The notes beneath the pieces are model-generated. The model saw only the letters and a list, made by a program, of their open reading frames with translations, did not search any database and was not told the DNA's origin. Shown piece by piece: positions 774 to 36,477 of a stretch of DNA of 43,246 nucleotides (within the stretch, counting starts at the first letter, position 1; each line of letters opens with the position of its first letter). The stretch spans positions 1 to 43,246 of IMG/VR virus record IMGVR_UViG_3300036839_000041; one strand, written 5' to 3'. This DNA is from a virus. A program made the translations under genes and the position numbers.

Positions 774-3383
774 GTGGCCGCATCAACGCGTGAGGTGTAT
801 CTCCTCCTCCGTGCACGCGACGAGGCTTCTCGTGTCGTACGAGGGTTTAGTTCGGAGCTCATGCGTTCTGCAGCGGCTGCAGCAGCCGCTGCTCGAAGGG
901 CCGAAGCTGAGACGCACAGGCAGACGGCAGCAACGTTGCGTGCTGCAGGAGCTACTCGACAGCAGGTGCAAACACACCTTAACCTTGCACGTGCACTAGA
1001 GCAGGAAGCTCGCCAGATCGAAGACAACGAGCGCAGAGTTCGACGTTTTGCTCAATCGATCGGTGCAGTGTCTAGCAGTCTCGAAACCCTTGGCATAGGT
1101 CTGGCCATTGTTGGCGGAGCGACTATAGCCTTCGTGGTCAGTTCTGCCAAGCAGTGGGCAGAGTACGAGCGACAGGTTGCACTGACGCACACGCAGATTG
1201 ACGGCTTCACAGCCTCTCTGCAAGACGTAGGTGCAATAGGAATGGATATTGCCCGCAGGCTTCCGGTTGCGTTCGAGGAGATCCAACCAGCGCTGTTCGA
1301 CATCTTCTCTTCGACCAGCGCGAACTTGGAGCAGGCTAAGATCCTTCTAGAAGGCTTCAGCAAGGCTGCTGTTGCTGGTCAGACAGACGTTCAGACAGCC
1401 GCTCGTGGTACAATCTCCATCATGAACGCGTACAACATCCCATTTGAGAACGTGAACAAGGTACTCGACATTCAGTTCGAGCTGGTCCGTAAGGGTGTTG
1501 GTACGTACGAAGAGTTCGCAGCCGTCTTCGGTCGAGTGGTCCCCGCGGCTACTCGTGCCGGTCAGAGCTTCGAAACTATCGCTGCGATGCTCGCGTTCAT
1601 GACTCGTAACGGTCAGAGTGCCGCGATGGCTTCGACGTCAGCTGCGCGTGCCCTTGAAGCGCTTACGAACCCCAAGACGGTGAAGCGCCTGGAAGAGATG
1701 GGCGTTAAGGTTCGTGACGCTAAGGGCAACTTCCTACCGCTCATTGATGTCCTCACTCAGCTTCGGGAGAAGATCCTCAAGCTTCCGCCGGCCGAACGAG
1801 TAGAGGCTCTGTTCGAGCTCCTCAAGGGCGCAGGCGGTACGATTCAGGCAAGGCGATTCATTGAACAGATCCTGCTGCGTGAAGGTGAGCTCGAGAACTT
1901 CCGTGACCTGTTGGAGTCAATGGGTAATGCTTCAGGTGTCATGGAGGAAAAGTTCGGTCAGATGGCCGACACCACAGCTTCAAAGATGCAGTTGCTGTCA
2001 AACAGATGGCAGGTCCTACGACTAGCGATCGGTGAAGCTGCGACACCAATACTGTTGGAGATCGTAGATCTCTTCAGCAGGCTATTGGAGTGGTTTAACA
2101 GACTTGATCCAGGTACAAAGAAAATCATCACTCAGTTCTTGATCTGGGGTGGTGTCATTGCAACCGTAGGTGGCTTGCTTCTAGCCTTCCTTGGTTTCAT
2201 GGCTGCTCTGGTTGCCGCCTTCACTTTTGCTGGCGCAGAAATTTTGGTGGTTGTTGGTGTCGTGAGTGGGCTCGTAGCAGCGCTGGGTGCAGCTGTCGCG
2301 ATCATAGTATCGCTGTGGAAGAACAGCGAGTCGTTCCGCTCAGCAATCATACGGCTCAAGAATGCGGTCACGGACTTCTGGAAGAACGCCTTCATGCCTG
2401 CGTGGCAAGAGATGGTGAAGTTCTTCGAAGAACGCGTTATGCCTGCAGCCCGCGAGGTGTGGGAGTTCTTCAGTGGCTCGTTGGCAAGCGCGATCAAGAC
2501 CATAGGCGACATGATTCAAAATCACCTCGTGCCATTCCTAAAGCAAGCAGTGGAGTGGTACAAGGAAAACAAGACACAGGTTGACCGGGCCGTTGGTGTG
2601 CTCATCGAACTTGCTAAGTGGATTGGCATAATCGGTGCAGCGATGTTTGCAGTGTTCGTTGTGATCATCGGTGGGGTGGTCATAGCAAGCATCATGATCT
2701 TCGTTAATGCAGTCCTATTCGCAGTTCAGATATGGACGAACACCGTCAACTTCATCATTGCTGCGGGTAAGTTCCTTGAGAAGGCCTGGAACGCAACTTG
2801 GGATAACATTGGCAAGTTCTTCAAGAACATGTGGAGCTCCATGGTTACTAGTGTTAGTAACCATTGGCAGATGATCATGACAGCTGTCACGAACGGAATT
2901 GAGAGGGTCAAGACATTCTTCTCCAATGCCAAGACGTGGTTACTTGACGCCGGTCGCAACATCATCATGGGTCTCATCGAAGGCATCGAGTCCAAAGCGA
3001 ATGCACTGTTCGACAAGATGAAGGGCATCACTCAGAAGGTTCGCGACTTCTGGCCGTTCTCGCCAGCTAAGACAGGACCGCTGTCAGGTAGTGGCGACTT
3101 GTTCTTTGCAGGCGCTGAGGTAGCCAATCGTGTAGCACAGGGTATGGTCAGCAACACCAGTGCAGTGTCAGCGGCATCTGCAGAGCTAGCACGTCAGGCT
3201 TCCGTAGGAACCGAACTCGGTATGCCGAACCAGTTTGGCTTTGGTCCTGGAAGGCCTCGTGACCCAGGTGTAGGCGGTCCGTCAACCGTGAACGACATTG
3301 ATATCACGATCAACACGCAGGAGATCGACCCACGTATAACCGGCACCGAGCTTGGGTGGGAGCTCGCGGGCAGACTGTCATGA
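774..3383 (+). CDS. Tape measure protein
   Basis: At 869 aa this is the longest protein in the window. It sets tail length and is threaded inside the tail tube. The N-terminus is an alanine-rich coiled coil, residues ~110-380 resemble the TP901-type tape measure core, and hydrophobic blocks lie near residues 107-125, 455-515 and 619-655. The C-terminal part (NIIMGLIEGI, then WPFSPAKTGPLSGSGD) is typical of phage tape measures. It starts with GTG after a strong GGAGGAGGAGAAG site, 15 bases after the frameshifted chaperone. By the usual ~0.15 nm per residue, the tail would be about 130 nm. Confidence 0.93.
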   Translation: MAASTREVYLLLRARDEASRVVRGFSSELMRSAAAAAAAARRAEAETHRQTAATLRAAGATRQQVQTHLNLARALEQEARQIEDNERRVRRFAQSIGAVSSSLETLGIGLAIVGGATIAFVVSSAKQWAEYERQVALTHTQIDGFTASLQDVGAIGMDIARRLPVAFEEIQPALFDIFSSTSANLEQAKILLEGFSKAAVAGQTDVQTAARGTISIMNAYNIPFENVNKVLDIQFELVRKGVGTYEEFAAVFGRVVPAATRAGQSFETIAAMLAFMTRNGQSAAMASTSAARALEALTNPKTVKRLEEMGVKVRDAKGNFLPLIDVLTQLREKILKLPPAERVEALFELLKGAGGTIQARRFIEQILLREGELENFRDLLESMGNASGVMEEKFGQMADTTASKMQLLSNRWQVLRLAIGEAATPILLEIVDLFSRLLEWFNRLDPGTKKIITQFLIWGGVIATVGGLLLAFLGFMAALVAAFTFAGAEILVVVGVVSGLVAALGAAVAIIVSLWKNSESFRSAIIRLKNAVTDFWKNAFMPAWQEMVKFFEERVMPAAREVWEFFSGSLASAIKTIGDMIQNHLVPFLKQAVEWYKENKTQVDRAVGVLIELAKWIGIIGAAMFAVFVVIIGGVVIASIMIFVNAVLFAVQIWTNTVNFIIAAGKFLEKAWNATWDNIGKFFKNMWSSMVTSVSNHWQMIMTAVTNGIERVKTFFSNAKTWLLDAGRNIIMGLIEGIESKANALFDKMKGITQKVRDFWPFSPAKTGPLSGSGDLFFAGAEVANRVAQGMVSNTSAVSAASAELARQASVGTELGMPNQFGFGPGRPRDPGVGGPSTVNDIDITINTQEIDPRITGTELGWELAGRLS

Positions 3384-4258: not shown

Positions 4259-5443
4259 ATGGCAATACTAAATCCGCCGGGCTGGTTGCAGAATGCTGGA
4301 GCCACCCACACGGCGTTGCAGTTCAGGCAGTATCACTCATTGTTCCACGCAGGTAACAGTAGCGTCGGAGCTGCATCCCTCCATGGTCGGGGCGGCGTGC
4401 ATCCGACTCTGGGTGGTGAGCTAGCTGTCACCCAAGCAGGTTCGCCCAACATGACTGTGCTGGTCGACTCTGGCGTTTGCACCATCGCCGGAACAGAGGG
4501 CAGCACGCAGGGCAGCTACATCGCCACCAACGATGCTTCGGCTACGTTGGCAGTCACAGCAGCGCATGGCAGCTTGCCGCGCATCGACATCGTTGTGGTC
4601 AACATCCGCGACAGCTTCTACAGCGGTGGAAGCAACGATGCACAGCTTCAGGTGATTGCTGGTACAGCTGCTGCATCACCAGTCGCACCTTCGCCTCCTG
4701 CGAACGCACTCATCTTGGCACAGATTGCCGTCGGTGCAGGCGTTACATCCATCGTGAACGCCAACATCACTGACATGCGTGACTACTTCGCTGCTGCTGG
4801 CGGTGTCATAAACGTTCGTAACCTAAGTGTTGCGCCCAGCACGACACTCATTGCCTCGGGCCAATTGTTGTGGTCCATGGCTGGTGCCAGCCTCCACGTT
4901 CATTCAGCAGGAGTCAACAACCAGATCTACCCAGGCTACAACAAGATTGCAGAGAGCATCCTAGGCTCGCCAGCAGCCAGCGTTACGTTCTCATCCATCC
5001 CGAGCACGTGGCGACACCTAGAGCTGGTCATCTCTGCTCGTGGCGACACGGCTGCGACGCTCACTGCAATGAGCCTTCGCTTCAACGCTGACAGTGGTGC
5101 CAACTACGACGCACAGCAGCTGGCAGGTAACGCAGCCATTACGGCGGCAGGAGAGTTCATCAATCCCACCAGCGCGCAGATCGGTGAGTGTGCAGCAAAC
5201 ACAGCGAGCGCCGGTGCTGCTGGAATCGCGACCGTGTTCATTCCGTTCTACGCTGGTACTGCCTTCTGGAAGCTGTTCACCAGTAGCCACCAGTTGCGCA
5301 ACGGTACTGGTACTACCACCATTCACACTAAGCACTGGGCGGGTACGTGGCGTAACACGGCCGCGATCACATCGGTCCAGATCCTTCCAGGCGCAGGCAA
5401 CTTCAACACCGGTTCGAGCTTTGCGTTGTATGGGAAGCCCTAA
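4259..5443 (+). CDS. Minor tail / baseplate protein
   Basis: A 394-aa protein between Dit and the Gp37-like tail protein. It is rich in Ala, Gly, Ser and Thr, with a repetitive beta-structure look (for example residues 60-110 and 250-390), as in baseplate upper proteins and receptor-binding tail proteins. It begins two bases after the Dit stop and its TAA overlaps the next ATG (TAATG), so the tail genes are translationally coupled. The exact role, host binding or structural collar, cannot be told from sequence alone. Confidence 0.65.
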   Translation: MAILNPPGWLQNAGATHTALQFRQYHSLFHAGNSSVGAASLHGRGGVHPTLGGELAVTQAGSPNMTVLVDSGVCTIAGTEGSTQGSYIATNDASATLAVTAAHGSLPRIDIVVVNIRDSFYSGGSNDAQLQVIAGTAAASPVAPSPPANALILAQIAVGAGVTSIVNANITDMRDYFAAAGGVINVRNLSVAPSTTLIASGQLLWSMAGASLHVHSAGVNNQIYPGYNKIAESILGSPAASVTFSSIPSTWRHLELVISARGDTAATLTAMSLRFNADSGANYDAQQLAGNAAITAAGEFINPTSAQIGECAANTASAGAAGIATVFIPFYAGTAFWKLFTSSHQLRNGTGTTTIHTKHWAGTWRNTAAITSVQILPGAGNFNTGSSFALYGKP

Positions 5444-33161: not shown

Positions 33162-33404
33162 TCACCCCCTCTCGCACAGACTCATGGCGTCCTTGAGTGC
33201 TTGGATGCGACGCTGCTGGCTAGCAATCAGATTGACGTAGTTCTCAGCAGCCTCGCTAGTTGTTTGAACCTCGAACAGCGGTGGCTCTTCGCTCTTGTGC
33301 CGTTCAAGTACCTCTTCAGCCTCGCCTAACGCGGCTTCCAAGGCCTCGAAGACAAATCCGATCTCCTCGTCAGAGAAGAGGTCGCTAAGCTTGCAGACGT
33401 GCAT
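33162..33404 (-). CDS. Hypothetical acidic coiled-coil protein (80 aa)
   Basis: MHVCKLSDLFSDEEIGFVFE begins a mostly helical protein, ending in LIASQQRRIQALKDAMSLC. GGAGGCGGC precedes the ATG, and a strong promoter lies about 35 bases upstream, making it the first gene of this transcript. The function is unknown. Confidence 0.65.
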   Translation of the reverse strand: MHVCKLSDLFSDEEIGFVFEALEAALGEAEEVLERHKSEEPPLFEVQTTSEAAENYVNLIASQQRRIQALKDAMSLCERG

Positions 33405-33435
33405 GCCGCCTCCGTTGTTTTGTTGTATACTATCT

Positions 33436-33464
33436 ATTATATAGGATTCCCTTTGGACTATCAA
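33436..33464 (-). promoter_or_regulatory. Sigma70-type promoter, class 1 copy 2
   Basis: Read leftward: TTGATA, 17 bases, TATAAT, near consensus, 32 bases before the ATG at 33404. The stretch GAATCCTATATAATAGAT is shared with the promoter at 25347. It would fire toward the helicase genes. Confidence 0.8.
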
Positions 33465-33489
33465 GGGGTCCATTGTTGGTTCTTTTTCG

Positions 33490-33560
33490 TGGCTCCGGCA
33501 GGAATCGAACCTGCGACGTCTCCGGCAACCCGGGCGATTCTTTACCACTATGACAGAGCC
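33490..33560 (-). tRNA. tRNA-like gene with non-canonical anticodon arm
   Basis: The acceptor stem GGCTCTG/CGGAGCC (one G-U) and the T arm GCAGG-TTCGATT-CCTGC are intact. The 39 bases between contain a D-loop-like AGTGGTAA but no D stem, and GCCCGGGTTGCCGG where an anticodon arm should be, which fits no 5-bp stem with a 7-base loop. The amino acid is unassigned. It is the last member (in transcription order) of the structured RNA array. Confidence 0.5.
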
Positions 33561-33572
33561 GATGTGGAAGAC

Positions 33573-33644
33573 GAAAGCCCTCCACCATATCGCTGCCATG
33601 TCCGCCGTTAACAGACATGATAGGTCATATGATGAAGGGCTTTC
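33573..33644 (-). ncRNA. Long hairpin RNA with G-U-supported 18-bp stem
   Basis: Read leftward, GAAAGCCCTTCATCATAT pairs with ATATGGTGGAGGGCTTTC. Two positions are G-U pairs in leftward RNA but would be A-C mismatches in rightward RNA, so the leftward transcript is the structured one. Inside, CATGTC pairs with GACATG. It lies 13 bases before the tRNA-like gene at 33560. Confidence 0.55.
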
Positions 33645-33694
33645 ATCTCCTCCAAGGAGTCGTGACCAAGGCGCCAACGGCCCCCCAGGTGTTA

Positions 33695-33777
33695 CGGAAG
33701 TGGCACCGCCCTGATGTCGGTTCACCAGTAGCTGCGACGAGCGACTTACGCTTGCAGTCCAGGCGGTGTCACTGCCG
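33695..33777 (-). ncRNA. Structured RNA element of tRNA size
   Basis: Read leftward, CGGCAGTGACACCGCC pairs with GGCGGTGCCACTTCCG (16 positions, two mismatches). Inside is a smaller arm, CTGC-a-AGCG-taagt-CGCT-cgtc-GCAG. It has no T arm. It abuts the tRNA-like element at 33778-33880 with no gap. Confidence 0.45.
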
Positions 33778-33880
33778 TGGGGTGGGGAGGACTCGAACCT
33801 CCGCCGGCCGTCTACCCGCTGCGACGCCTGGGCCCTTGACGTCAGACTATCGAGTCCCTAATGCGAGCAGGTTCCACCCC
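33778..33880 (-). tRNA. Long tRNA-like element (103 nt)
   Basis: The acceptor stem GGGGTGG/CCACCCC and the T arm GGAGG-TTCGAGT-CCTCC are perfect. Between them are 71 bases instead of ~41 (or ~56 in long-arm tRNAs): a possible 3-bp D arm (CCT/AGG), GACT-CGAT-AGTC, then GACGTC-AAGGGCCCA-GGCGTC. The last is a 6-bp stem with a 9-base loop around the palindrome GGGCCC. No readable anticodon is seen. It could be a tRNA with an insertion or a tRNA mimic. Confidence 0.45.
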
Positions 33881-33888
33881 ATGTTCAG

Positions 33889-34383
33889 TTATACGCTTGT
33901 GCCAAACAGGGCAATCTCGTAGTCGACAGCGCTGCCAGAGCCATTGGCGAGGCGTAAGACGTTGCCTGTGACCGGCGTGACAGGATAGCCAGCGTTGGGA
34001 GCGACTAGGAACTGCATGCCCCCGGGCTGGACGTTTATGGCATCGCCGCCCGCAGCTACCCAGCCGACGAACGGACTCGCACTGCCGCCGACAACGATCG
34101 TGTTCACGTTGGCGGGGAGAGAGTAGATGTGCATGATCTTGATCTTGGCGAAGCTGATCGGTCGATCGCCCAGCATCAGGTTGTCGAGATCGAGGTCGTC
34201 GTTTGTGGAGATCGGGATAGTGCGACTGTCGAACCACATGACGTCGCACTCTCCGTCGTCGGTACCGTTCGCCAGGACGATTGCCTTAGCAATCGACAAC
34301 GCCACCTTGGACTCGGATGATAGATCCAAGGAGTCGAGCAGCGTCGCACCTATGTTGAGGTCGATCCGGGTGTTGAGTGACAT
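33889..34383 (-). CDS. Hypothetical protein, possibly a virion component
   Basis: A 164-aa beta-rich protein alone among the RNA elements. It starts MSLNTRIDLNIGATLLDSLD and ends in a strand-rich half (NTIVVGGSASPFVGW, GGMQFLVAPNAGY, VDYEIALFGTSV). It resembles small phage proteins of likely structural role that are usually hypothetical in annotations. AAGGGGGAG precedes the ATG. Finding a virion-like protein in the leftward block away from other structural genes is unusual. Confidence 0.65.
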   Translation of the reverse strand: MSLNTRIDLNIGATLLDSLDLSSESKVALSIAKAIVLANGTDDGECDVMWFDSRTIPISTNDDLDLDNLMLGDRPISFAKIKIMHIYSLPANVNTIVVGGSASPFVGWVAAGGDAINVQPGGMQFLVAPNAGYPVTPVTGNVLRLANGSGSAVDYEIALFGTSV

Positions 34384-34407
34384 CTCTCCCCCTTAGTGAA
34401 GTTGTAC

Positions 34408-34499
34408 GAGTGGCGCCCTGATGTATATACATCAGATTCACAGTCGGTGTCGGTGGTGGAAGTACTGATCGCCGGAGAAGGTTTGACCCGGCGCCACTC
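34408..34499 (-). ncRNA. Structured RNA closed by a 10-bp stem, containing an 18-bp palindrome
   Basis: GAGTGGCGCC/GGCGCCACTC closes a 92-nt unit. Next to the 3' arm lies CTGATGTATATACATCAG, a perfect 18-base palindrome that would fold as a 7-bp hairpin in the place where a tRNA has its T arm. It is three bases from the tRNA-like element at 34503. Confidence 0.5.
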
Positions 34500-34502
34500 T
34501 AG

Positions 34503-34571
34503 TAGGGGTGCCAGGACTCGAACCTGACTTGTCGTAGGGCGCCTTACGACTGACAAATGCCCATCACCCCT
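34503..34571 (-). tRNA. Short tRNA-like gene (69 nt) with palindromic anticodon-position loop
   Basis: The acceptor stem AGGGGTG/CACCCCT and T arm TCAGG-TTCGAGT-CCTGG (one G-U) are intact. The central hairpin is GTCGTA-AGGCGCCC-TACGAC, a 6-bp stem with an 8-base loop containing palindrome GGCGCC, and the D region is only 12 bases. No U33 or readable anticodon is present. It may be a degenerate tRNA or a mimic. Confidence 0.5.
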
Positions 34572-34574
34572 TTG

Positions 34575-34648
34575 GTACGACCTCCTGTAGACCCAGACTC
34601 CCGAAGCGTTCCCTTACGGACGATTCGCTCGTTTGCAGGAGGCCGTAC
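34575..34648 (-). ncRNA. Structured RNA closed by a 13-bp stem
   Basis: Read leftward, GTACGGCCTCCTG pairs with CAGGAGGTCGTAC along its full length (one G-U). The 48-base interior holds weaker pairings (CGAG, CGCTTC). It is three bases from the tRNA-like element at 34571. Confidence 0.5.
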
Positions 34649-34863
34649 GCATCATATCATTGTGGCCGGTTAGGTTCACGCGCGGTCTAGGTGTTCCGCA
34701 ATCCCCCGCCGGTCCGAGTACGTCTACCCTTATTCAAGATGGTCGTTCCAAGCTGATCCGCACATATCACATGTTTGTTTGGATCCAACGGGACTTGCGC
34801 CTTAACGTGAATTAGCGCCGTATGCCGCGCTTGGGCGCACCACCAACCTTACCTAGTCGGTCG
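34649..34863. other. Gene-free stretch with possible weak RNA structures
   Basis: No convincing gene. Read leftward there are possible stems GCGCC/GGCGC around AGCGC/GCGCT, GATCC/GGATC around ACAT/ATGT, and GCGG/CCGC. No T-arm consensus and no promoter were seen. It may hold further members of the RNA array. Confidence 0.35.
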
Positions 34864-34939
34864 TTGCGGCGACTGGATTCGAACCAGCGATCTCTGGCTT
34901 ATGAGGCCAGCGGGAACAACCGAGCTTCCCTACACCGCA
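34864..34939 (-). tRNA. tRNA-Met (CAT)
   Basis: A full cloverleaf: acceptor TGCGGTG/CGCCGCA, D arm GGGA/TCCC, anticodon arm CTGGC-CTCATAA-GCCAG with anticodon CAT, and T arm GCTGG-TTCGAAT-CCAGT. The mismatched 1-72 pair of an initiator is absent (T-A pair), so it is an elongator Met or, if C34 is modified by host TilS, an Ile-CAU tRNA. It is the only canonical tRNA in the window. Confidence 0.9.
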
Positions 34940-34943
34940 CCGT

Positions 34944-35003
34944 GCGACCGCCGAGTCTCGCTCTCGGATGCTCCGTCAGGTAGCCTGTACGGTTCACGGT
35001 CGC
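34944..35003 (-). ncRNA. Three-arm tRNA-like RNA without T-loop consensus
   Basis: Read leftward, GCGACCG pairs with CGGTCGC like an acceptor stem. Next to the 3' arm is a 5-bp, 7-base-loop hairpin CCGAG-AGCGAGA-CTCGG in the T-arm position but without TTCRA. A second arm is CCGT-a-CAGG-cta-CCTG-ACGG. It is four bases from tRNA-Met. At 60 nt it is too short for a tRNA. Confidence 0.45.
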
Positions 35004-35121
35004 GAATCATAGTTTTACGTCGTAGACCCTTCGGACGCCTAGTGTCACGACATTACCTTCGGGCTGTTAACCTGGGGAGGTGTCGGGGACCCGACGGAAG
35101 CGGTCGCACACTAGTGTTTTT
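35004..35121. other. Gene-free stretch between RNA elements
   Basis: No gene. It contains a small hairpin GTCGG/CCGAC and the 10-base palindrome ACACTAGTGT followed on the + strand by TTTTT (35107-35121), which could stop rightward transcripts. Confidence 0.35.
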
Positions 35122-35175
35122 GTGTCCGTGTGGTAGCCAACCTTTTATGCCCAGGGGGGCACGGACACTCCCCCT
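35122..35175 (-). ncRNA. H-type pseudoknot, copy 1
   Basis: Read leftward: stem 1 AGGGGG/CCCCCT, one-base loop, stem 2 GTGTCCGTG pairing with CACGGACAC 22 bases after stem 1, with the linker GGGCATAAAAGGTTGGCTACCA. Stem 2's 5' arm lies inside the stem 1 hairpin loop, which is a classic H-type fold. The linker GGTTGGCTACCA is shared with copy 3. Confidence 0.65.
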
Positions 35176-35206
35176 CTCCAACCCTCTGCGGCCTCGCAGA
35201 AGCTTT

Positions 35207-35257
35207 GCCCGAGTGACTTGTCTGTCTTCGCCGTCCCCAGGGGCTCGGGCTCTCCCT
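35207..35257 (-). ncRNA. H-type pseudoknot, copy 2
   Basis: Same architecture as its neighbours with different bases: stem 1 AGGG/CCCT, loop AGA, stem 2 GCCCGAG pairing with CTCGGGC. The linker (GGGGACGGCGAAGACAGACA...) is diverged. Both stems are kept by compensating changes. Confidence 0.6.
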
Positions 35258-35272
35258 AGACGGTACGTTTGT

Positions 35273-35323
35273 GCCCACGTGGTAGCCAACCTTTCTTCCC
35301 CAGGGGGCGTGGGCTCTCCCCTG
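35273..35323 (-). ncRNA. H-type pseudoknot, copy 3
   Basis: Stem 1 CAGGGG/CCCCTG, loop AGA, stem 2 GCCCACG pairing with CGTGGGC. The linker GGGAAGAAAGGTTGGCTACCA ends with the same 14 bases as copy 1. It is the first of the three in the leftward transcript. Confidence 0.65.
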
Positions 35324-35442
35324 TATCCTGCAATGAGCGAAGGTCAATGGGAATGAAGTTTGGGTGTCGGCCTAACCTCTCCAATACCGACTTGGCGAAC
35401 TCCTCGAGTCAGTCACAACTCGTGTTGCCTTCCCCACTGCGG

Positions 35443-36060
35443 CTACTCGGCCTCTACGACCACGCCGGTCGGAGGGGCGTCCTCGGCTTCCGCCGGCGCC
35501 TCGGCCTTCTTGGCGTTCTCCGCCTTCTTGTCGGCTTTGACCTTGGCGTTGGCCTTGCGCTCGGAGACGCGAGCGTCCTTGTCCTCCCACCACTTGATCA
35601 CCTCAGCGACCTTGACGACGCACTCTCGGCCGCCGGTGAGCTCGGGATCGGTGTAGCGCGGCAGGGGGTTCTTGCTGTCGGGACCGTTGTTCTTGATGTA
35701 CGAGTACATCACCTGGGGCTTGATCTCGATCTCCTGATCGGCTCCGATCAGCCCAGCTTCTCGACCCTTGATGGTCAGGTGCTCGGAGAGCCTCTTCGCG
35801 GCCTCGACGGGCGCGACGTAGCCCTCGGCGACAGGCTTGCGGGACGACGTGGTCTTGGCCGCACCGACCTGTTTGACGTTCTTGACCGGCGGGGTGGCCG
35901 GCGCCTCTTCGGTCTCGTCGTCGGCGGTAGCGTTGCTGTCGACGTCCACATCAGCGTCCGGCTCTTCGGTCTCGACCTCGTCTAGGTCGGTGACGTGCAC
36001 CGGTTCTTCAGTGGCGACAGCCGTGGTGGCGGGCTCTTCGCCGTCGAACGGGTTTCCCAT
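35443..36060 (-). CDS. DNA-binding-like protein with acidic N-terminus and Lys/Ala-rich tail
   Basis: A 205-aa protein. Residues 1-60 are acidic and disordered; residues ~78-160 (EGYVAPVEAAKRLSEHLTIKG, IKPQVMYSYIKNN, PLPRYTDPEL, VVKVAEVIKWWED) look like an excisionase/MerR-type winged helix-turn-helix with a WW-containing last helix. The C-terminus is Lys/Ala-rich. It has its own promoter (36118-36147) and GGAGGAAACG before the ATG. Phage regulator or nucleoid-type protein are both possible. Confidence 0.65.
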   Translation of the reverse strand: MGNPFDGEEPATTAVATEEPVHVTDLDEVETEEPDADVDVDSNATADDETEEAPATPPVKNVKQVGAAKTTSSRKPVAEGYVAPVEAAKRLSEHLTIKGREAGLIGADQEIEIKPQVMYSYIKNNGPDSKNPLPRYTDPELTGGRECVVKVAEVIKWWEDKDARVSERKANAKVKADKKAENAKKAEAPAEAEDAPPTGVVVEAE

Positions 36061-36117
36061 TTTCGTTTCCTCCTGTTGTAGTATCCTTGCTTGAGCTTCT
36101 TCTGCTCTGCTATCTCA

Positions 36118-36147
36118 ATTCTACAGCAGAACCAATGTTCCTTTCAA
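36118..36147 (-). promoter_or_regulatory. Sigma70-type promoter, class 2 copy 1
   Basis: Read leftward: GCGCCCCCTTGAAA, 18 bases, TAGAAT. The flanks (AAGCGCCCCCTTG upstream, GCTGTAGAATTGA at -10) match the promoter at 38673-38702. It lies about 57 bases before the ATG at 36060. Confidence 0.75.
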
Positions 36148-36186
36148 GGGGGCGCTTGCAAGATCTTTTGGTTCTACACGCGGTCT

Positions 36187-36477
36187 TTACTTGCGCGTGG
36201 TGCGTCCGGTCTTGGCTCGCGTGTCAGTCTTGGTCGGCTTCGGCGTAACCGGCGGCTTCTGAGCAACGTACACGCCGTCGCCCTGCTGGCCGACGATCCA
36301 ACCCTCGGTCCGAAGGATGATGTAGACACCACGAAGGGTACCGTACTTCAGCGTCAGTCCGTACTCGCCGGACTCCCACTGTGCCTGCGAGGGCAACTTG
36401 TGACCGGGAGGCCACTCGCCGGACTCGATCTTCTCGCGGATGAACTTGCAACCCGCGATGTACTTCGGCTCACTCAT
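36187..36477 (-). CDS. Winged-helix (GntR-like) regulator
   Basis: A 96-aa protein. Residues 8-70 (CKFIREKIESGEWPPGHKLPSQ, then WESGEYGLTLKYGTLRGVYIIL, RTEGWIVGQQGDGVYVA) follow the GntR winged-helix pattern, with the final beta wing G-x-G-x-Y-V-A. There is no effector domain, only a basic Pro/Thr/Lys tail. It is preceded by two hairpins and GGAGG. It probably regulates phage or host promoters. Confidence 0.75.
   Translation of the reverse strand: MSEPKYIAGCKFIREKIESGEWPPGHKLPSQAQWESGEYGLTLKYGTLRGVYIILRTEGWIVGQQGDGVYVAQKPPVTPKPTKTDTRAKTGRTTRK

Follow-up and report, generated by a model that had tools for sequence, protein, structure and literature searches.

Tandem pseudoknots and phage tRNA clusters

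Tandem pseudoknots are known as nuclease blocks of eukaryotic viruses and as antitoxins of bacteria. Small non-tRNA RNAs of unknown role, the stable RNAs C and D of T4, lie inside a phage tRNA cluster. A limited literature search found no pseudoknot array described at the head of such a cluster. Bacterial RNase J1 is likewise halted in vitro by flaviviral xrRNAs, which are pseudoknotted and sometimes tandem, and whose resistance is due to a ring around the 5' end rather than to stability alone (PMC5760640). Among the type III antitoxin RNAs, CptI comprises two coaxial duplex stems, an L1 of a single base and a long loop rich in A (PMC5086642), and PhiTE evades ToxIN by expanding its copies of pseudo-ToxI (PMC3475682).

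The locus described here consists of three paralogous H-type pseudoknots in tandem (the trio), each with an additional hairpin in loop 3, and lies in a non-coding stretch flanked by a protein gene and a tRNA array. This identification is well supported.

Genomic setting

The trio belongs to IMG/VR record IMGVR_UViG_3300036839_000041, which was analysed over its entire length of 43,246 bases (the window) and carries tape-measure, DNA polymerase, primase and helicase genes. Isolate phages are remote, the helicase being only ~30% identical to those listed. The nearest record found is L001/L002, a single 29.6-kb contig with a helicase ~70% identical to that of the window and with synteny extending through the tRNA array. 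A further route to relatives was the family of the gene upstream of the trio (35443-36060), through which 31 IMG/VR loci were reached.

The trio sits between the stop codon of this gene, 120 nt downstream of it, and a tRNA-Met, which agrees with its placement at the head of an RNA array by the sequence-only reading that preceded this analysis. The surrounding features, in the order of the transcript, are as follows.

36118-36147, minus strand: promoter-like sequence TTGAAA-18-TAGAAT, candidate driver of the gene, the pseudoknots and the array; L001 has the counterpart TTGAAG-18-TATAAT at the matching place
35443-36060, minus strand: upstream protein gene, 205 aa, function unassigned, probably co-transcribed with the trio; relatives at the 31 IMG/VR loci
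35366-35391, minus strand: leader hairpin GUCGG/CCGAC with loop UAUUGGAGAGGUUAGG, just upstream of the trio at the 5' edge of the putative insertion (alignment with L001)
35039-35114, minus strand: long-stem element (CUAGUGUGCGAC.../...GUCGUGACACUAG) directly downstream of the trio at the 3' edge of the putative insertion; common to L001 1203-1280 (plus strand), by alignment and by folds of both
34863-34939, minus strand: tRNA-Met (CAT), first recognised array tRNA downstream of the trio (ARAGORN; Rfam tRNA, 59.1 bits)

The 205-aa upstream protein has no PHROG, Pfam or PADLOC match, its predicted structure (from a three-sequence alignment, pLDDT 69) has no fold match in the PDB, and a search of bacterial genome contigs returned no prophage relative. 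Because the promoter-like sequence has its counterpart in L001, the upstream gene, the trio and the tRNA array probably form a single leftward transcript. A small protein with a GntR-type DNA-binding domain (36187-36477, minus strand; Pfam PF00392, E-value: 7.5e-7) adjoins the candidate promoter of the array operon. ARAGORN gave no tmRNA match, and tRNA families alone reach the Rfam gathering score in the window, with no match to GOLLD or ROOL.

The alignment with L001 is unbroken through the upstream gene to 35374 (blastn match 35374-36456) and resumes at the long-stem element (35114-35039). At the site of the trio, L001 has ~16 nt where the window has ~250 nt, so that the trio is absent from L001 and the surrounding leader is otherwise kept. 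Since L001 aligns on both flanks, the trio appears to be either an insertion in the lineage of the window or a loss in that of L001.

Several other elements occur in both genomes. The leader hairpin (35391-35366, minus strand; L001 ~1167-1190, plus strand) has a conserved loop, UUGGAG(A/U)GGUU, and stems that are paired in both genomes (GUCGG/CCGAC and GGCG/CGCC). The closing stems of the long-stem element just before tRNA-Met also differ between the window and L001 yet pair in both (z-scores of -2.8 and -5.8), with ACCUCCCCAGGU conserved inside. An inter-tRNA module (window 34411-34525, L001 2948-3054) is 72% identical, contains GGGUCAAACCU and a GAUGUAUAUACAUC-type hairpin, and may serve in processing. 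Some tRNA-like stretches, with odd bodies but recognisable acceptor and T-arm signatures and uncalled by ARAGORN, occur at ~34505-34575 and 33780-33880 of the window (minus strand) and at 1390-1520 of L001 (plus strand).

Architecture of the three copies

All three copies are built alike. They lie on the minus strand (35323-35122), and the transcript would run through copy 3, copy 2 and copy 1 in that order. Each consists of S1 (6 bp), L1 (1-3 nt), S2 (7 bp, or 9 bp in copy 1), L2 (a single C), the S1' arm, L3 (21-23 nt), the S2' arm and an A-rich tail. L3 is made up of a purine-rich joint of 9-10 nt, a hairpin of 3 bp (P3) and a single A before S2'. Segment lengths are nearly constant across the copies (6-3-7-1-6-9/10-3-5/6-3-1-7); the cores measure 51-54 nt and the units are spaced 64 and 84 nt apart. 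Interleaved helices, a short L1, an L2 of 1 nt and an L3 that spans S1, the hallmarks of the H-type, are present in all three copies.

35273-35323, minus strand: pseudoknot copy 3, nearest the 5' end of the transcript; S1 CAGGGG/CCCCUG, L1 AGA, S2 GCCCACG/CGUGGGC, L2 C, L3 21 nt; scan -30.6 kcal/mol, second on the minus strand
35281-35291, minus strand: P3 of copy 3, GGU-UGGCU-ACC, within L3, one A ahead of S2' (pair table); this sequence occurs exactly twice in the window
35207-35259, minus strand: pseudoknot copy 2; S1 CUAGGG/CCCUGG, L1 AGA, S2 GCCCGAG/CUCGGGC, L2 C, L3 23 nt; scan -27.3 kcal/mol, third on the minus strand
35215-35226, minus strand: P3 of copy 2, GAC-AGACAA-GUC, compensated relative to GGU/ACC (pair table)
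35184-35202, minus strand: plain hairpin UCUGCG/CGCAGA separating copies 2 and 1 (from sequence; paired in the minimum-energy fold of 451 nt)
35122-35175, minus strand: pseudoknot copy 1; S1 AGGGGG/CCCCCU, L1 A (or AGU with a 7-bp S2), S2 GUGUCCGUG/CACGGACAC, L2 C, L3 22 nt; scan -33.6 kcal/mol, best in the window
35132-35142, minus strand: P3 of copy 1, GGU-UGGCU-ACC, the same sequence as P3 of copy 3 (pair table)

These minus-strand cores (35323-35273, 35259-35207 and 35175-35122) lie where the sequence-only reading had located three pseudoknots. That reading had given S1 of copy 2 as AGGG; the stem stands, and its length is corrected to the 6 bp found in the other copies (CUAGGG/CCCUGG). 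The linker GGTTGGCTACCA, which had been recognised as common to copies 1 and 3, is indeed shared by them and additionally forms the small GGU/ACC hairpin that is compensated in copy 2 (GAC/GUC). This hairpin (P3) and its compensated change had escaped the sequence-only reading.

Statistical support and covariation

A mechanical scan for H-type pseudoknots, in which scores are stacking sums, was run over both strands of the whole window. The trio comprises the top three minus-strand pseudoknots (-30.6, -27.3 and -33.6 kcal/mol for copies 3, 2 and 1). The best single pseudoknot in 24 shuffles of the whole window scores -30.7. Of 6000 dinucleotide-shuffled versions of 35001-35445, 45 contain a single pseudoknot at or below -27 and none contains two; the real sequence has three. 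On the plus strand of the trio region the best knot reaches only -19.4. In H-type geometry an L1 of 1-3 nt crosses the deep groove of a 7-bp stem and an L3 of ~22 nt crosses S1. The minus-strand arrangement alone fits this geometry, which is consistent with the promoter-like sequence and with gene direction.

All 16 pairs (6 in S1, 7 in S2 and 3 in P3) are standard in every copy. Pairwise comparison of the copies, which were hand-aligned to the proposed structure so that the counts are tilted towards it, gives 18 two-sided changes, 7 of them in S1, and no one-sided change. If the differences in the 3' arms were randomly placed, the probability that all pairs would be standard is ~0, 6e-4 and 6.5e-5 for the three comparisons, which are not independent. 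A pair-count tool applied to a MAFFT alignment (A3) finds S2 and two P3 pairs 100% paired, with two-sided changes at four pairs, against 18-48% paired in slid controls. The claim of a tandem trio of H-type pseudoknots whose stems covary is thus upheld by the scan, the shuffles, the change counts and the random-placement probabilities. The accompanying claim that every arm change is matched in its partner holds in that no change is one-sided; part of the change in S1 is a shift of register or length in the G- and C-runs and not plain substitution.

The change in S1 is indeed mostly one of length. G-runs of 4, 3 and 5 nt stand opposite C-runs of 5, 4 and 6 nt in copies 3, 2 and 1, and the G-run following the U (4, 4 and 3 nt, respectively) does not track the C-run. 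This bears on a nested three-way junction, in which S2 would enclose a CCC-CUGG-GGG hairpin and P3, and the 5' G-run would be unpaired. Such a junction is the minimum-energy nested fold of each copy and retains the covariation of S2 and P3. However, it pairs the second G-run and leaves unexplained both the tracking of the C-run by the 5' G-run and the six of six standard S1 pairs with seven two-sided changes. The length correlation therefore favours S1, and the junction is very unlikely.

A DNA-level repeat (an iteron, or a recombination or transposition site) or a chance likeness of three repeats would be suggested by the presence, outside coding sequence, of three GC-rich inverted repeats that interleave. 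Chance is excluded by the shuffles, all loop lengths are kept, and protein-binding DNA repeats would not be expected to change on both sides of interleaved stems and of P3, which makes this explanation highly improbable.

With three paralogues from one genome, the covariation is strong although it is not phylogenetic. The RNA element is almost certainly real and under selection, and the view that the fold was maintained by selection as the stems diverged in sequence is well supported.

The units are 53-76% identical to each other (31-44 of 58 columns). Copies 1 and 3 differ at 5 positions per set of arms, or 10 bases, at 3 of the 10 joint positions and at 1 of the 3 in L1, and are identical in P3, the P3 loop, the single A, L2 and the tail. 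Copy 2 is an exception in that its P3 loop differs. The faster change of stems than of loops suggests that the loops may be read by something or be engaged in tertiary contacts.

Folding energy and stem orthogonality

Nearest-neighbour folding without pseudoknots places the copies no better than shuffled sequences (z-scores of 0.3, 0.35 and -0.6; -0.01 for 451 nt). As nested folding gives no signal, the case is built on covariation and topology. By a crude estimate (the stack sum plus a pseudoknot penalty of 9.6 kcal/mol, compared with the best nested fold), the knot has -21.0 against -18.2 kcal/mol in copy 3, -17.7 against -17.6 in copy 2 and -24.0 against -20.9 in copy 1; that is, the knot is favoured by ~3 kcal/mol in copies 3 and 1 and has no advantage in copy 2. 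The 5' arms of S2 favour their own partners over those of the other copies by 5-10 kcal/mol, as is expected for tandem knots obliged not to cross-pair; S1 is less orthogonal.

Search for homologues

In Rfam 15, no family matches the trio at the gathering score or down to an E-value of 10 (33400-35450 searched), in keeping with the earlier statement that it matches no RNA family. This includes the riboswitch families, and a metabolite riboswitch of a pseudoknot type (preQ1-, SAM-II- or guanidine-III-like) is scarcely probable. The H-type topology is shared, and the long loop of preQ1-II also carries an extra hairpin. However, neither an expression platform nor a coding gene lies directly downstream of the trio, the next gene being a tRNA, and three divergent serial copies would be unusual. 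Among the three roles raised by the sequence-only reading (block, decoy or switch), the switch looks the least likely. A frameshift signal is also unlikely.

Queried by blastn against 50,697 phage records, the 256-nt region gave one trivial match of 27 bases (E-value: 3). In IMG/VR, the exact pattern with the shared linker has no match and the S1-L1-S1' pattern has 16 loci, none of which forms the knot. S1'-P3 patterns have 18 matches in IMG/VR and 35 in bacterial genomes, none with matching S1 and S2. These patterns demand near-exact sequence and would miss copies as divergent as copy 2.

A covariance model (R1) was built from S2 and P3, the pseudoknot itself not being representable; the three copies, which are its training set, score 69-76 bits, and the next best score, in relatives, is 13.5 bits. 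A search of related phages for further copies by such a model, as proposed in the sequence-only reading, was run with R1 and gave no significant match in 29 other phage records searched whole (30 with the window). Among 395 sampled genomes of the class of a Streptomyces (G030), the lone R1 match (26.2 bits, E-value: 0.0077 for one genome) is ascribed to chance because the sequence reads as coding DNA, probably tsaD.

Strong knots in the relatives, from a descriptor scan of most of their sequence, are mostly inside long open frames and were judged compatible with chance, without a matched shuffle. An apparent knot in one relative (L003, 5349-5387) is a long perfect hairpin of ~20 bp (5347-5393, plus strand; z-score of -6.6) and probably a terminator. 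This hairpin follows a homologue of the gene at 35443-36060, and no tRNA was found in L003. In a distant relative (L164 8792-8846, plus strand; record G026), a possible H-type pseudoknot with a loop-3 hairpin lies between a tRNA-like 3' end and a tRNA-Lys, with a competing hairpin present. It could be a functional counterpart or a chance match, the chance of such a match near tRNAs being estimated, and not computed, at ~1 in ten.

Because no homologue was found in Rfam, isolate phages, the IMG/VR patterns, the 30 phage records or the 395 bacterial genomes, the trio appears to be an orphan motif of three divergent paralogues. This distribution bears on a cis-regulatory role as a protein- or RNA-binding site, either for autoregulation by the product of gene 35443-36060 or for regulating the processing of the tRNAs or the passage of transcription through the array. 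The trio directly follows that gene, conserved leader hairpins flank it on both sides, and T4 gene 32 provides a precedent for pseudoknot-mediated autoregulation. Nevertheless, the gene is present in L001 and ~30 other phage loci, yet R1 found no trio in the 29 other records, and the trio is 120 nt past the stop codon and not at a ribosome-binding site. A cis-regulatory role is unlikely.

Proposed function

A nuclease roadblock ranks first among the proposed functions, but weakly, and is put forward as a tentative choice. It is favoured because of the place of the trio between a gene and a tRNA array that need cutting apart, the tandem layout and the orthogonal stems; the stopping of RNase J1 by xrRNAs is a precedent. 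The proposed mechanism is as follows. The knots would act as mechanical barriers within the array transcript. Host or phage ribonucleases would mature or attack this polycistronic RNA, and the serial GC-rich knots would stall exonucleases. These could be 5'-to-3' enzymes like RNase J that move towards the tRNAs, or 3'-to-5' enzymes that reach the upstream messenger by way of processing sites. Copies in series would give greater stopping power, and divergent stems would let each copy fold on itself and not with its neighbour. The structure, covariation, stem orthogonality and insertion site in this proposal are computed. We infer the transcription of the trio, its nuclease resistance and the identity of the protected RNA.

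Several observations stand against a roadblock. A 5'-end ring of the kind that gives xrRNAs their resistance cannot be inferred for the trio, and copy 2 gains no energy by forming the pseudoknot instead of the nested fold. The array can do without the trio, as the corresponding array of L001 shows. Copies 1 and 3 have changed in their stems yet are identical in P3, the P3 loop and the tail, which hints at sequence-specific recognition and not at a purely mechanical role.

The same pattern of conserved loops and tails with changed stems suits recognition by a protein, as in an RNA decoy or antitoxin mimic. The knots, released or in tandem, would then occupy a host RNA-binding enzyme, as phage pseudo-ToxI does the ToxN ribonuclease. 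The likeness to type III antitoxins (tandem H-type pseudoknots with single-stranded tails), the resemblance to CptI in its short L1, coaxial stems and A-rich loop (PMC5086642) and the multiplication of pseudo-ToxI by PhiTE to escape ToxIN (PMC3475682) also speak for a decoy. However, the cited ToxI repeats are 34-36 nt long and near-identical, and the trio, at spacings of 64 and 84 nt with 31-44 of 58 columns identical, is not a set of near-identical short tandem repeats. There is also no Rfam family match, even a loose one, and the P3 loop of copy 2 differs. A scan of the record for ToxN gave no match but carries no weight, its controls being equally silent, and the neighbouring proteins tested have no PADLOC or Pfam match to a ToxN, CptN or TenpN toxin. 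A decoy is possible but doubtful. Roadblock, decoy and cis-regulatory site are inseparable by sequence alone.

Comparison with known systems

The riboswitches preQ1-I, preQ1-II, SAM-II and guanidine-III share the H-type topology, and preQ1-II also a loop hairpin; the trio differs from them in its lack of an Rfam match and of a downstream metabolic gene, and in its three serial copies before tRNAs. GOLLD and ROOL are, like the trio, structured, pseudoknotted non-coding RNAs near phage tRNA genes, but they are hundreds of nucleotides long and have their own Rfam families, neither of which the trio matches. Flaviviral xrRNAs resemble it as compact pseudoknotted RNAs, sometimes tandem, in non-coding viral RNA. 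Whereas an xrRNA is built on a three-way junction and forms a ring about its 5' end, the trio is made of plain H-type knots with P3 and has no Rfam xrRNA match.

The type III antitoxin RNAs (ToxI and CptI) and the pseudo-ToxI of PhiTE have, like the trio, tandem H-type knots with a short L1, a long A-rich loop and single-stranded tails, and pseudo-ToxI is also phage-borne and intergenic. Their repeats, however, are near-identical short units that precede a toxin gene or mimic its antitoxin, whereas the trio has divergent cores of 51-54 nt at a spacing of 64-84 nt, an extra P3, a place beside tRNAs and no recognised toxin.

The trio raises the question of whether roadblocks to nucleases are a feature of phage tRNA operons, or whether such an operon offers bait to the RNA-cleaving defences that tRNA arrays presumably counter. 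Since the covariation of three paralogues fixes the fold from one genome, direct tests are possible. It is conceivable, though the balance is against it, that the trio represents a new family of phage non-coding RNA, in which pseudoknot-plus-hairpin units would act in trans as decoys or be the bacterial equivalent of xrRNAs, guarding the tRNA array from RNA-cleaving host defences.
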